A DNA stretch of 26,081 nucleotides. Origin: a virus. Positions within the stretch are counted from its first letter, which is position 1, and each line of letters starts with the position of its first letter. The stretch is taken from the IMG/VR virus record IMGVR_UViG_3300045967_000068, positions 1-26,081 of that record. The stretch is one strand, 5' to 3'. Under the pieces are notes generated by a model. That model saw only the letters and a program-made list of their open reading frames with translations, was not told the DNA's origin and did no database searches. A program made the translations under genes and the position numbers. Positions 4,223 to 26,081 of the stretch are shown here, one piece after another.

Positions 4223-5812
4223 GTGGCACTCGCACCCAACCTGCTACCACTGAGGGCGCCGGGCGCCAACGCCAAGCCCGAGGTGGGCAGCCCCGAGTGG
4301 TGGGCCCTGCGCCTGCTGCGCCGGCTCGAGACTCGAGCAGCCACCCTCGCCAAGTGGGACCGTTACTACGAAGGCGACCAGCCCCTAGCCTTTGCCAGCC
4401 AGAAGTTCGAGGAGGCGTTTGGCGATCGCTTCCCCGCGTTCACGAGCAACTTCTGCCAGCTCGCGGTGGACGGCATCGTGGAGCGCCTAGAGGTGCAGGG
4501 CTTCCGCTTCAATAGCCCCGAGGGCGACTCCGACCTGTGGGAGGTGTGGCAGGAGAACGACCTGGACGCCGGCTCGCAGCAGGCGCACACCGAGGCCATG
4601 ATCATGGGCATGGCCTACGCGCTCGTGGAGCCCCAGGGCGAGGGCGTGCCGCTCATCACGGTGGAGAGCCCGCTGCAGGCGATCGTGGCACCCGACCCGA
4701 GGCGCGCGACCAAGCGCTCGGCCGGGCTCAAACGGTGGATCGATGACGAGGCCCGGTGCGTGCTCGTGGTGTACCTGCCCGAGGGCGTGTATAAGTTCCG
4801 GAGCGCCAAGGCCTGGGCCGACCATTACAGCCACTACGGCGATTTCGGGCGGCCGCCCGCCGGCGAGCTGGAGCCCGGCGAGTGGACCGAGCAGATGAGC
4901 CACCTCTGGCACGGCGCAGGCTTCGAGCCCTACCAGCCCACGGGCGATGATGAGTGGCCGCTGCCCAACCCCATGGGCGTGGTGCCCCTCGTGGAGCTGG
5001 CCAACCGCCCACGGATCAACCGCCCAGGGCAGAGCGAGATCAAGCCCATCCAGAGCAATCAGGACGCGGTCAATAAGTACCGCACCGACGCCCTCATCAC
5101 CTCGGAGTTCGCAGCCTACCCGCAGCGCTACCTGCTCAACTATGAGCCCGAGACCGACGAGGCTACCGGGCGTGCTCGTGAGCCGTTCCGCACGGCCATC
5201 GACCGCCTGTGGACGGTGCCGCCGGCCGATCCCGACAACCCCGACGCCCCCGAGCCCAAGATCGGCAGCCTGCCGGCGGCCAGCCTCGAACCGTATGAGC
5301 GCATGATCGCCATGGAGGTGGGCCACCTCTCCAGCATCTCGGGCCTGCCCTACCACTACTTCCTGAGCACCCCCACCGCCGTGCCGCCCTCGGGCGAGAG
5401 CCTGAAGAGCAGCGAGGCCCGGCTGGTACGCAAGATCGGGCGCGCGCAGCTCCACCTGGGCGAGGGCTGGGAGGAGGTCATGCGCGTGGCGCTGCGGGCC
5501 CGCCGCGATGCGAGGGCCGAGCTGCGCACCGCCGAAACGATCTGGCAGGACACCGAGACGCGGAACGAGGCCACCCGCACCGATGCCGTGGTCAAGCTCC
5601 ACACCCAAGGGATCATCGACGACGAGCTGGCGTGGGAGATGCTCGGGCTCTCGCCGGCACAGATCGAACGCATCCAGGAGCGCATGGCCAAGGCCGAGGA
5701 GGAGGCCGAGGCCGAGCAGGCGGAGGCGCCCCCAGCTCCGCCTGCTGCTCCGCCCGAGGTGGTGCCGGCCCCGACGGGCCCGCGCATGGGTGCTACAGTA
5801 CCGAACGCATAG
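4223..5812 (+). CDS. Portal protein, SPP1 gp6-like
   Basis: A 529-residue portal protein. The N-terminus holds the helix WWALRLLRRLETRAATLAKW followed by YYEGDQPLAFAS, and then FTSNFCQLAVDGIVERLEVQGFRF, typical of the SPP1 gp6-like portal family. The clip/stem region includes PIQSNQDAVNKYRTDAL and GLPYHYFLS...SGESLKSSEARLVRKI. The C-terminal 50 residues are acidic then Pro/Ala-rich and probably disordered. Twelve copies are expected to form the ring through which DNA is packaged and to which the neck attaches. GTG 4223 has GAGGAGG at 4212-4218 just upstream, overlapping the TerL stop. A strong hairpin begins at the last base of the stop codon. Confidence 0.92.
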   Translation: MALAPNLLPLRAPGANAKPEVGSPEWWALRLLRRLETRAATLAKWDRYYEGDQPLAFASQKFEEAFGDRFPAFTSNFCQLAVDGIVERLEVQGFRFNSPEGDSDLWEVWQENDLDAGSQQAHTEAMIMGMAYALVEPQGEGVPLITVESPLQAIVAPDPRRATKRSAGLKRWIDDEARCVLVVYLPEGVYKFRSAKAWADHYSHYGDFGRPPAGELEPGEWTEQMSHLWHGAGFEPYQPTGDDEWPLPNPMGVVPLVELANRPRINRPGQSEIKPIQSNQDAVNKYRTDALITSEFAAYPQRYLLNYEPETDEATGRAREPFRTAIDRLWTVPPADPDNPDAPEPKIGSLPAASLEPYERMIAMEVGHLSSISGLPYHYFLSTPTAVPPSGESLKSSEARLVRKIGRAQLHLGEGWEEVMRVALRARRDARAELRTAETIWQDTETRNEATRTDAVVKLHTQGIIDDELAWEMLGLSPAQIERIQERMAKAEEEAEAEQAEAPPAPPAAPPEVVPAPTGPRMGATVPNA

Positions 5813-5850: not shown

Positions 5851-6480
5851 GTGAGCGAGAGAGCAGAGACGGGTGCAGCCGGGGCCCAGGCGGCCGCCGG
5901 CGCACAGCCCCAGGAGGGCGCCAAGCCTACCGGCCAGGAGCCGGCCGCGGCACAGGGCCAGGAGCCCGCCGCTGGAGCAGCAGGCGCGGCCGAGGAAAGC
6001 CCCGAGGAGCGGGCCGACCGGCTGGAGCGTGAGCTGAAAGAGACCCGAGCCGAGGCGGCACGCAACCGCCGCAAGGCGCAGGATCTCGAGACAGCCCAAG
6101 CCAAGGCCGCCGAGGCCGGCATGTCGGAGCTGGAGCGGGCCCAGGCGGCACAGCGGGCCGCGGAGGAGCGAGCAACCGCACTGGAGGCGCAGGTGCGCAC
6201 CCAGGGCATCCGATCGGCAGCCCTCACGGCTGCCACGAAGCTCGGCTTCCGCAACCCCGAGGTGGCCTACCGGCTGCTGGACCGAGACGAGCTGGAGTTC
6301 ACCGACGAGGGTGAGCCCAAGAACGTGGAGGCCCTGCTGCGCAAGCTCGCCACGAGCGAGAGCTACCTAGTCAAGGGCGCCGCTGCAGGCGACTACGGCG
6401 GAGGCAACCGGGGCGGCCAGCAGGAGCCGGCCCAGCCCGGAATGAACGAACTCATCAAAGCGGCCATCCGCGGGGGCTGA
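5851..6480 (+). CDS. Capsid scaffolding protein
   Basis: A 209-residue protein with the composition of phage scaffolds. Residues 1-50 are Ala/Gly/Pro/Gln-rich and disordered. Residues 51-115 form a long charged coiled coil (ERADRLERELKETRAEAARN and onward). Then comes a compact segment (SAALTAATKLGFRNPEVAYRL) and a Gly-rich linker leading to the C-terminal helix MNELIKAAIRGG, the usual place for the capsid-binding motif. Scaffold directs prohead assembly and is later lost. It starts at GTG 5851 with AGGGG nearby and precedes the major capsid gene. I see no separate prohead protease in the window, apart from the distant zincin, so scaffold may exit intact. Confidence 0.88.
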   Translation: MSERAETGAAGAQAAAGAQPQEGAKPTGQEPAAAQGQEPAAGAAGAAEESPEERADRLERELKETRAEAARNRRKAQDLETAQAKAAEAGMSELERAQAAQRAAEERATALEAQVRTQGIRSAALTAATKLGFRNPEVAYRLLDRDELEFTDEGEPKNVEALLRKLATSESYLVKGAAAGDYGGGNRGGQQEPAQPGMNELIKAAIRGG

Positions 6481-7493: not shown

Positions 7494-7524
7494 GCAGCGG
7501 CCCTGCCTCACCCAGGGCCGCTGC
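7494..7524 (+). terminator. Strong hairpin after the capsid gene (terminator or mRNA stabiliser)
   Basis: GCAGCGGCCCTG (7494-7505), a 7-base loop CCTCACC, then CAGGGCCGCTGC (7513-7524): a perfect 12-base-pair GC-rich stem 21 bases after the capsid stop. There is no T-run, so it may be a U-less terminator of the kind proposed in actinobacteria, or a 3' end protector for the abundant capsid mRNA. Downstream genes probably still need some read-through, as no promoter is visible before 7552. Confidence 0.6.
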
Positions 7525-8207: not shown

Positions 8208-9800
8208 GTGGCTCTGTCCAAGGTTGCAGACGGGCAGGCCGCAGCCGCCACGATATCGCTCGCGGGGGTGGGCATCACCACGGGCGATATCGTGCTCGTG
8301 CACGCATACCGCAACGGCTCCACCACCGTGCCGAGCAGCCCCGGCGCCTCGTGGACCGACATCGCCACCTCGGGCGGTGCCAATACGAACTCGCGGAGGA
8401 TCGGCTACCGCGTCATCCAGGCCGGCGACAACCTCGCCACGATCGTGGGCACCTGGACCAACGCCACCGGCATCCAGTTCATCGCCCTGCGCGGCCAGCG
8501 CGTAACCTCCCCCATTGGCGGCTCGGCCTCGGGCGGCACGAACACCTCCACGCTCACCACCCCAGCCGTAACCCTCACCGACGCCGCGGGCACCTCGTGG
8601 GTGGTGGCCTTTGCGGGCTCCAAGGCCACGAACGCCAACGGGGTCACGCTCTCGTCGACCACCGACGAGGGCAGCAGCGTGGGCGCGCTCAACCTCGCCA
8701 CCGGCCGCAACGTCACCGCCTACGCCAGCCGGAACTACTCGGCCACCGTCAACGCCTCGGCCAACCGCATGGATGCGGTGGAGGTGCGCGCCGAGCCGCC
8801 GCCCAATGCCAACGCCTCCATCACGGCGACCGGCGGAGGCGTGGCCACCGTTACCCAGGCCACCGCGCGCAACCGTTCGGCCACGGCCACGGGCGGAGGC
8901 GTGGCCAGCGTGGCGCCGACGAGCGCGCGGAGCACCTCGGCCACCGCCACCGGCGGAGGAGCTGCTGCTGCTGCCGGGCTCGCCGGGCGCCAGCTCGACC
9001 TCGTGGCCACCGGCGGAGGCGTGCTCACCCTCGACTATGAGCGCAGCGCCGACACCGAGAACCATGATGCGGTCGTAACGGCCACCGGCGGAGGCGTGGC
9101 CACTGTGGCGGCCAGCGGCCAGCGGGCCACGAGCGCGAGCGCCACCGGCGCCGGCGCCCTCACCCTCGCGGCCACGAGCGACCACACCGCGAGCCCCACG
9201 GCCACCGGCGGAGGCGTGGCCAGCGTGCAGCTCGCCACGGCTCGTGCCGCAGTTCTCGGAGCCACGGGCGGAGGCGTGGCCGCGGTGCAGGCCGAGAGCG
9301 CACGCCAGCTCGCGGCGCTCCTCTCGGGCGGAGGCGTGCTCACCCTCGCCCAGGCCACGGCTCGGCTGGCCGCCGTGGGTGCCACCGGAGGCGGTACCGC
9401 CGTGGTGGATGGCACCCAGGAGGAAGTGCACGACGCGCACATCACGGCCACGGGCGGAGGCGTGGCAACGCTCACCACCACGACCGGGCGCAGCAGCAGC
9501 CCCACGGCCACCGGCGGAGGTGCCGCGGCGCTCGGGCTCACAGGTGCCCACGCGGCGGCCGTCGTGGCCACAGGTGGCGGGCAGGCGAGCCCGAGCTGGG
9601 CGGGCGCCCACGCGGGTGCCGTGCAGGCCACAGGCGGAGGCGTGCTCACCCTCGTGGCTGGGCCCTCGCGCCGCGAGCAAGGTGGTACTGTGGCGCTGGC
9701 CGAACTATCGGGAGGCGCAACGGTGCAGGATCGGGCCGGAGGCTCTGCAGTGAGTGATCGAGCGAGCGCCACGTCCGTGAACGACGAGGGGCCCGCATGA
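8208..9800 (+). CDS. Repeat-bearing virion surface protein (14 x 20-residue ATGGG repeats)
   Basis: A 530-residue protein from GTG 8208. Residues 1-206 look like a beta-sandwich (ATISLAGVGITTGDIVLVHA, SWTDIATSGGANTNSRRIGY, FIALRGQRVTSP, TSWVVAFAG), similar in style to phage jelly-roll or Ig-like virion domains. Residues 207 to about 493 are fourteen repeats of the form ATGGGVxTLxxxxARxxxxT, exactly 20 residues apart except where short acidic linkers break the array into 4, 6 and 4 units. The tail (VALAELSGGATVQDRAGGSA and onward) is Ser/Ala/Asp-rich. There is no signal peptide or membrane segment. Position between capsid and head-completion genes suggests a head fibre or decoration. Its Thr/Ser-rich repeats are possible sugar acceptors for the downstream glycosyltransferases (inference). 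Confidence 0.75.
   Translation: MALSKVADGQAAAATISLAGVGITTGDIVLVHAYRNGSTTVPSSPGASWTDIATSGGANTNSRRIGYRVIQAGDNLATIVGTWTNATGIQFIALRGQRVTSPIGGSASGGTNTSTLTTPAVTLTDAAGTSWVVAFAGSKATNANGVTLSSTTDEGSSVGALNLATGRNVTAYASRNYSATVNASANRMDAVEVRAEPPPNANASITATGGGVATVTQATARNRSATATGGGVASVAPTSARSTSATATGGGAAAAAGLAGRQLDLVATGGGVLTLDYERSADTENHDAVVTATGGGVATVAASGQRATSASATGAGALTLAATSDHTASPTATGGGVASVQLATARAAVLGATGGGVAAVQAESARQLAALLSGGGVLTLAQATARLAAVGATGGGTAVVDGTQEEVHDAHITATGGGVATLTTTTGRSSSPTATGGGAAALGLTGAHAAAVVATGGGQASPSWAGAHAGAVQATGGGVLTLVAGPSRREQGGTVALAELSGGATVQDRAGGSAVSDRASATSVNDEGPA
8826..9686 (+). repeat. 60-bp in-frame tandem repeat, 14 units
   Basis: The core GGCGGAGG or a close variant recurs at 8832, 8892, 8952, 9012, 9087, 9147 (variant), 9207, 9267, 9327, 9387 (variant), 9453, 9513, 9573 (variant) and 9633. 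The spacing is exactly 60 bases, except 75 between units 4 and 5 and 66 between units 10 and 11. The surrounding consensus is GCCACCGGCGGAGGCGTG. Every spacing is a multiple of three, so copy-number change by slippage or recombination would keep the reading frame. Confidence 0.9.
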
Positions 9801-14473: not shown

Positions 14474-14477
14474 GAAT

Positions 14478-14519
14478 GTGGATAACCCACTTGCAATCGC
14501 GGGGGTGAGCCGCTAAGCT
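14478..14519 (+). promoter_or_regulatory. Promoter P1 (TTGCAA-N17-TAAGCT), duplicated element
   Basis: -35 TTGCAA at 14491-14496, a 17-base spacer, and -10 TAAGCT at 14514-14519, giving an expected start near 14526. The upstream part GTGGATAACCC (14478-14488) is shared with the copy at 25959. Conservation extends across the spacer (TCGCGxGGGTG), which suggests an additional bound factor or a specific sigma/activator. It lies 4 bases after the FkbM stop and drives the structured RNA and/or the tail genes. Local A/T content stands out against the surroundings. Confidence 0.75.
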
Positions 14520-14525
14520 CCTCGA

Positions 14526-14728
14526 TGTACTGGCCTCGCGCCTCGGGCCACTCGCCACCGGGCAACCGGAGACGGCGAGGCCCCCGAGGGCAGGCCCGCA
14601 CCGCACCGCTAGGGTGGCTGGCAAAGCGCTGCAGCGCCGACCAGCTCACGGCTCGCAAAGCGAAGACCGGGTGTAGGGCTCGGACCCCTAGCAGCACTGG
14701 CGCTGGGCTTGATCTCCCGGCGCCAGTG
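14526..14728 (+). ncRNA. Structured RNA: non-coding RNA or long 5' leader of tail operon
   Basis: About 230 bases lie between promoter P1 and the next clear start with no convincing gene. One frame is open but is Arg/Pro-rich, with visibly lower G/C at third positions than real neighbours. Hairpin I (14532-14596): stems 14532-36/14592-96, 14541-47/14583-89, 14551-56/14574-79 and 14558-61/14566-69, 22 pairs capped by a GCAA tetraloop. Hairpin II: 14617-21/14641-45 enclosing GCGC-TGCA-GCGC. Hairpin III: 14649-51/14667-69 and 14653-56/14660-63. Hairpin IV: TAGGG/CCCTA (14674-78/14686-90). Hairpin V: 13 pairs (14695-14707/14716-14728). The GNRA loop and the G-U pairs fit transcription of the + strand. 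It could be a free small RNA, an antitermination leader or a translational regulator; no known family is recognised. Confidence 0.55.
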
Positions 14729-14758
14729 GCGGTCTACGGCCGTGCTACTCTGCCGGCC

Positions 14759-15184
14759 ATGGCGCGAACCCAGCGGCTGGGCAAGAAGGTGGTGCTGTAC
14801 CGCGAGACGGTGGATGCGCTCGTGCTGGGCTACGCGGACGGCCAGCAGGAGGTGGGCGAGCGGATCATCGAGCGCGTGGACCCAGGCGTGCCCGACCGTG
14901 AGCCCTACGGGCGAGGCCTCGTGCAGAGCGGCGCCGCCGTTACCTACCTCAAAGGCCAGAAGGTGGCGGGCCGTGGCACGGCACCTCGTGGAGCCCAGCT
15001 CAAACGTGCTACCGTGATGACTGTGGTGGGCTACGGCTTCCCCGGTCGGTTTCTGGAGGAGGGCACCATCTACATCTCGCCTGGGCAGCTCGGGCTCACC
15101 CAGGGCGCCATGGCCGAGGTGAACGGCGCCGGCGCCGTGGTGGCGCCGGCCATTGCCCGCCGGCTCGCCAAGGTGCGCACGTGA
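14759..15184 (+). CDS. Neck/tail completion protein (HK97 gp10-like position)
   Basis: A 141-residue protein from ATG 14759 (MARTQRLGKK). There is no obvious Shine-Dalgarno, so translation could depend on the upstream RNA structure; an alternative in-frame GTG at 14726 lies inside hairpin V. Content is mixed: VVLYRETVDALVLGYADGQQ, IIERVDPGVPDREPYGRG, TVMTVVGYGFPGRFLEEGTI, and a basic helix at the end (APAIARRLAKVRT). The slot between the head genes and the tail terminator is normally held by HK97 gp10-type proteins, but sequence motifs alone do not prove this. GTGA overlap with the next gene. Confidence 0.6.
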   Translation: MARTQRLGKKVVLYRETVDALVLGYADGQQEVGERIIERVDPGVPDREPYGRGLVQSGAAVTYLKGQKVAGRGTAPRGAQLKRATVMTVVGYGFPGRFLEEGTIYISPGQLGLTQGAMAEVNGAGAVVAPAIARRLAKVRT

Positions 15185-25946: not shown

Positions 25947-25958
25947 GCCGCAAGTTTT

Positions 25959-26000
25959 GTGGAAAACCCTCTTGCAATCGCGTGGGTGTACCCCTAATGT
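25959..26000 (+). promoter_or_regulatory. Promoter P2 (TTGCAA-N17-TAATGT), second copy of duplicated element
   Basis: -35 TTGCAA at 25972-25977, 17-base spacer, -10 TAATGT at 25995-26000; start expected near 26007. From GTGGAAAACCC (25959) to the end of the -10, 34 of 42 positions match P1 at 14478-14519. The leader to the next ATG is short (about 25 bases), unlike the roughly 230-base structured leader at P1. Confidence 0.75.
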
Positions 26001-26031: not shown

Positions 26032-26081
26032 ATGACGCAGCAGCAGATCGCAGCCACCATCGCCTACAGCCTCGATGCCAT
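26032..26081 (+). CDS. N-terminus of a gene driven by P2 (truncated by window edge)
   Basis: ATG 26032 follows AGAGGAG at 26018-26024 with ideal spacing and lies about 25 bases after the predicted P2 start site. Only 16 complete codons are visible (MTQQQIAATIAYSLDA), too few to name. Having a dedicated promoter and a strong Shine-Dalgarno suggests a well-expressed product. An endolysin would fit the neighbouring holin-like genes, but this is a guess from position. Confidence 0.7.
   Translation, partial: MTQQQIAATIAYSLDA

Follow-up and report, generated by a model that had tools for sequence, protein, structure and literature searches.

The stretch of DNA that separates the glycan cassette from the tail genes in the virus described here is best read as a real, lineage-specific noncoding unit which is autonomous and is not a leader of the tail operon, and we give roughly even chances to the more specific proposal of an RNA “moron”, a noncoding transcription unit complete in itself that inserted at that site. 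The features that can be read directly from the DNA are an insertion, a noncoding composition, a repeated promoter, two exceptional hairpins, and the lack of both a Shine-Dalgarno sequence and a gene behind the promoter copy at 14477. An earlier note on this DNA had proposed either a phage small RNA or a leader controlling expression of the tail genes; the small RNA stays the best reading, while the leader has lost ground.

The window (the whole stretch of DNA that was analysed, 26,081 nucleotides) is a fragment from a virus record, with a GC content of 67-74% along its length. The nearest counterparts of its portal protein are the portals of Thermobifida, Streptomyces and Arthrobacter phages, at 33-36% identity, and the virus is an uncultured phage whose host is probably an actinobacterium. 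The genes follow the order terminase, portal, scaffold, capsid, a block containing glycosyltransferases and two methyltransferases, the stretch at 14474-14758, a 141-aa structural gene, tail terminator and tape measure. A 530-aa frame of unassigned function that precedes the glycan cassette contains degenerate repeats at multiples of about 60 bp (8820-9655; GGCCACCGGCGGAGGCGTG and others).

Table 1. Coordinates of the insert, its predicted parts and the related features (positions in the window unless another genome is named).
Feature	Position	Strand	Remarks
Insertion, whole noncoding unit	14474..14740 (breakpoints approximate)	+	absent from two syntenic relatives
DnaA-box-like 9-mer TTATCCACA	14477..14485	-	5 bp upstream of the -35
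Promoter, -35 TTGCAA, 17-bp spacer, -10 TAAGCT	14491..14519	+	member of the phage promoter set
Predicted noncoding RNA, ~205 nt	14525..14731	+	-10 used to place the start, last hairpin to place the end
Hairpin 1, 24 pairs, GCAA tetraloop at 14562-14565	14532..14596	+	fold z -4.15 (post hoc)
Middle region, predicted three-hairpin junction closed by GCTAGG/CCTAGC	14598..14692	+	z 0.04, as shuffles
Hairpin 5, 13 pairs, 8-base loop, no U tract	14695..14728	+	probable 3' end/terminator
Candidate extended -10 (TGCTACTCT) before the tail gene	14743..14751	+	motif only; spaced as for a leaderless start at ATG 14759
Downstream structural gene, 141 aa	14759..15184	+	start backed by homologues
Second promoter copy with DnaA-like box	25958..26000	+	before a Shine-Dalgarno-led gene starting at 26032
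Post-capsid hairpin	7494-7524		counterparts in G001 and G003
98-aa gene of L056	L056:3149-3445	-	own TTGACA-17-TACGCT promoter and GC hairpin

The evidence for insertion comes from two relatives whose capsid and tail genes are shared with the window and which both lack the insert. In the first (G001), where the whole glycan cassette and the tail genes are also present, the methyltransferase stop codon comes a few bases before the tail gene begins; in the second (G003) the stop of a glycosyltransferase-like gene overlaps the tail gene start. Because the stretch is missing from both of these syntenic relatives, its approximately 280 bp are most simply explained as a gain in the lineage of the window. 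The flanks of the insert, TACGGGCCGGC (14459) and TACGGCCGTGC (14736), contain TACGG and match a single stretch of G001. The same phage is present in a public contig (L004) at 99.93% identity; with 8 mismatches to the window in 11.9 kb, 0 of them in the insert, it is too close to show that the insert is conserved.

The site itself accepts morons, since a more distant relative (L056) carries a promoter-bearing gene there, between a homologous glycosyltransferase and a homologous tail gene; the 98-aa product of this gene has no confident Pfam match. The insert resembles a moron in that it lies between genes which abut in relatives (G001 and G003), has a predicted promoter of its own (TTGCAA-17-TAAGCT, a repeated phage motif), and finishes in a terminal hairpin, a candidate terminator with 13 pairs and no U tract whose like is seen after the capsid gene of three phages. 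It is unlike a moron in that its putative terminator is without a U tract and that it holds no gene of its own, which in classical cases encodes a protein; since no coding signal is present on either strand, only a noncoding analogue of a moron is claimed. A decayed protein moron can be dismissed, as the insert has neither a match to the 98-aa moron of the distant relative nor a Shine-Dalgarno-led ORF.

The promoter that had been noticed before the stretch is real as a repeated motif. It belongs to a set of at least four members, which comprises TGTGGATAACCCACTTGCAATCGCGGGGGTGAGCCGCTAAGCT (14477-14519), the copy at 25958, copies at 26241 and 28005 of G001, and a copy at 5989 of G002 that consists of the core only. 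The other full copies agree with TGTGGATAACCCACTTGCAATCGCGGGGGTGAGCCGCTAAGCT at 31, 31 and 27 of the 31 fixed positions, against a background of about 18. DnaA boxes have the form TTWTNCACA in E. coli and TTGTCCACA in actinobacteria. At 5 bp from its -35, every full copy of the promoter has, on the minus strand, one of TTATCCACA, TTTTCCACA and TTGTCCACA, and these 9-mers, which differ only where DnaA boxes vary, are found in the window and in G001 only at promoter copies (the window's sole two lie at 14477-14485 and 25958-25966), with 0.06-0.07 expected per shuffled genome. Host DnaA may tune the promoter at 14491-14519, to judge from the DnaA-like box next to its -35. The other copies are followed within 20-60 nt by a Shine-Dalgarno sequence and a start codon, whereas the copy at 14477 has neither such a leader nor a Shine-Dalgarno sequence downstream. 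The copy in G002 lies upstream of a replication and recombination block with genes for endonuclease VII, topoisomerase, RecE, RecT and a methyltransferase, and the motif would be an early-type phage promoter.

The predicted RNA at 14526-14731 folds with an energy of -114.1 kcal/mol and a z of -3.16, a value that 0 of 200 shuffled sequences equalled, and for the looser stretch 14500-14740 z is only -1.87. The earlier note had described five successive hairpins. This description holds for hairpins 1 and 5, which are exceptional and are the only parts of the RNA that fold better than shuffled sequences, but it does not hold for the three in the middle region, which fold as shuffled sequences do. 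Hairpins 1 and 5 each have a z of -4.15, in both cases a post hoc value. The first of them (-45.6 kcal/mol) is the most stable 69-nt stretch among the windows of the + strand that were sampled, and it has the GCAA loop that had been reported, with 24 pairs counted in five runs in place of the 22 pairs in four stems. The 13 pairs and 8-base loop of hairpin 5 are as first given; it is the sole perfect 13-pair hairpin in 26 kb, and hairpins with at least 13 pairs (at least 12 of them Watson-Crick) arise at a mean of 0.12 per shuffled genome. The preference for the + strand that had been claimed is modest overall, since hairpin 5 is more stable there by about 3.6 kcal/mol and hairpin 1 is about equally stable on both strands. 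When z is scanned with shorter windows the insert is not the top region, and some 90-nt windows elsewhere score lower. In a genome of 71% GC in which lower z values occur elsewhere, structure alone is therefore not decisive.

The 3' end of the RNA is a matter of the geometry of hairpin 5. This hairpin has no U tract, and a scan for standard terminators found none. In 3 of 3 phages a U-less hairpin of 12 pairs, with a loop of 7-8 bases and a wholly different sequence, comes after the capsid gene, and the retention of this structure while the sequence changes identifies these hairpins as functional punctuation. Hairpin 5 has the same geometry as these post-capsid hairpins, and according to a survey a poly-U tract is unnecessary for intrinsic termination in many bacterial genomes (PMC8355165); on these two grounds hairpin 5 is taken as the probable 3' end of the RNA. 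Since it has no U tract, readthrough into the tail genes is possible. The post-capsid hairpins of the three related phages lie at 7494-7524 of the window, after 8384 in L042 and after 7827 in L044, and hairpin-like inverted repeats occur between portal and scaffold in each of these phages.

An alternative that we consider unlikely is that the stretch is the 5' leader of the tail operon. Its promoter would then drive the tail genes, and its hairpins would stabilise the message or regulate translation or, in the manner of put, elongation, which would make up for the glycan cassette and for the coupling that the methyltransferase and tail genes have lost. This is consistent with the position of the stretch directly upstream of the tail genes on the same strand, with the fact that the insert parts genes which abut and are probably coupled in relatives, and with a hairpin 5 that has no U tract and is not a standard terminator. 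It agrees poorly with a promoter from the set that precedes right-arm and replication genes and not from a late set, with relatives that have the same cassette and have tail genes without the element, and with a 13-pair hairpin that would hinder elongation unless antiterminated. The ATG at 14759, moreover, has no Shine-Dalgarno sequence before it. The put RNA of HK022, which the earlier note had offered as a model, consists of hairpins directly behind a phage promoter; its two stem-loops act on the elongating polymerase, which then reads through terminators. The comparison is weakened by the non-late promoter set, by the relatives whose tail genes do without the element, and by the second strong hairpin of the insert, which is end-like; the other promoter copies, which should then also have put-like elements downstream, have none, and no Rfam family of any kind matches the insert at the gathering threshold. 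Finally, the tail gene may have an extended -10 of its own, TGCTACTCT, with 7 nt between the end of this motif (14743-14751) and the ATG at 14759. A TAGGCT stands at the same spacing before the tail gene of G001, and the motif is a candidate leaderless promoter from which the tail gene may have its own start.

It is distinctly improbable, in our estimation, that the insert has no RNA function and is a DNA-level or passive element, in which a promoter and palindromes were inserted as recombination debris or as a DnaA-binding or origin-like site. The near symmetry of both main hairpins on the two strands, the DnaA-like box, the restriction to a single lineage and the lack of evidence for conservation would all suit such an element, but a complete promoter faces the hairpins, the transcribed sense folds better than shuffled sequences, and there is one box and no iterated array of DnaA boxes as in origins.

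The noncoding character of 14474-14758 is established by base composition. The GC content by codon position is flat over 14525-14758 (0.69/0.74/0.73, against about 0.7/0.5/0.9 in the neighbouring real genes), and codon scores are negative in 6 of 6 frames, so that there is no coding signal on either strand. An open frame which the earlier note did not mention nevertheless spans the stretch, from an ATG at 14525 to 15184. In L021 and L023 the homologues of the protein encoded downstream start with Met-Ala-Arg, as at the ATG of 14759, and the extension from 14525 therefore lies outside the conserved gene. The earlier claim that the stretch holds no credible gene is thus borne out by the flat composition and by the homologue starts.

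Several points speak against an RNA unit: the searches found no homologue of the RNA, diverged or otherwise, beyond the near-identical contig, the middle region is unremarkable, hairpin 5 has no U tract, complementarity to the phage genome is no more than chance, and the ATG at 14525 falls exactly at the expected transcription start, which is an awkward coincidence. If transcription began at A14525, a leaderless message would add 78 codons to the tail protein, for a total of 219 aa, and the apparent RNA would be coding sequence or would restore translational coupling. The ATG follows the -10 by 6 nt, the chance of an in-frame open ATG at the start site is by a rough estimate below 1%, and leaderless messages are common in mycobacteria (PMC3898074). 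We still regard a leaderless frame as very improbable, because the codon score of the extension is -0.33, against +0.53 in the core, with no periodicity in its codon-position GC, because the homologues begin without it, and because it is rich in Arg and Pro and no homologue of it was seen.

Searches for relatives of the RNA gave no family to which it could be assigned. No Rfam family matches the predicted RNA at either curated or lax thresholds, in accordance with what had been said of it, and ARAGORN reports 0 tRNA or tmRNA genes in spite of a cloverleaf-like middle with a 7-pair closing stem. A comparison of the insert by blastn with phages and plasmids returned chance pieces only. The covariance model R1, searched against the relatives and 299 genomes of one actinobacterial class, found nothing outside the window, although a model of this kind, built from a single sequence, is weak and gives poor evidence of absence. 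In 396 genomes of the phylum, blastn found four short matches over hairpin 1. These loci have 70-74% GC, none of the four folds like hairpin 1, and the two that were checked for genes both lie within long reading frames; on these grounds all four are taken as chance. A search of the phage genome for an antisense target gave longest complements of 14 and 13 nt, which are within the distribution for shuffled sequences; the 13-nt complement pairs the loop of hairpin 5 with the portal mRNA at 5036.

We infer the transcription and function of the proposed RNA unit as follows. Host RNA polymerase would start at about 14525, together with the other promoters of the phage's set, which precede right-arm genes and in one case lie upstream of the replication and recombination block. 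The 5' end of the resulting RNA of about 205 nt would be protected by hairpin 1, and its 3' end would be set by hairpin 5, acting as a terminator or a decay barrier without a U tract. The RNA would accumulate and act in trans early in infection, as a small RNA or as a decoy that binds a protein; this function in trans is the least certain step of the explanation.

Known systems offer partial parallels to such a unit. Lambdoid prophages have small RNA genes at a moron site, which encode anti-sRNAs such as AsxR (PMC4104026), and these are likewise small noncoding RNA genes at a site of moron insertion. They differ in that they are 51-60 nt long, bound by Hfq, and located behind PR' in E. coli prophages, while the RNA of the insert is predicted to be about 205 nt long, has strong hairpins, and lies among the head and tail genes of a GC-rich actinophage-like virus. 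The cluster A mycobacteriophages L5, D29 and StarStuff produce abundant noncoding RNAs at the right end of the genome, from the early lytic promoter Pleft (PMC5712189). The likeness is one of kind only, in that these RNAs are noncoding, arise in an actinobacterial host from an early lytic promoter and have no assigned function; they have been measured and lie at the right genome end, and no sequence match to the insert was found in the phage collection.

A more elaborate form of the explanation, which we hold to be a long shot, is that the RNA is an early small RNA expressed from a DnaA-box promoter, with host DnaA timing both the promoters of the replication genes and an RNA that has effects in trans on the host or rival phages. 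With its DnaA-like box beside every -35, the promoter set would tie the timing of phage genes to the host replication initiator. If the insert is transcribed, it would be a small-RNA gene that a phage lineage has acquired as a unit, at a site where a distant relative has a protein moron, and the evolution of morons in actinophage-like viruses would then include noncoding RNA.
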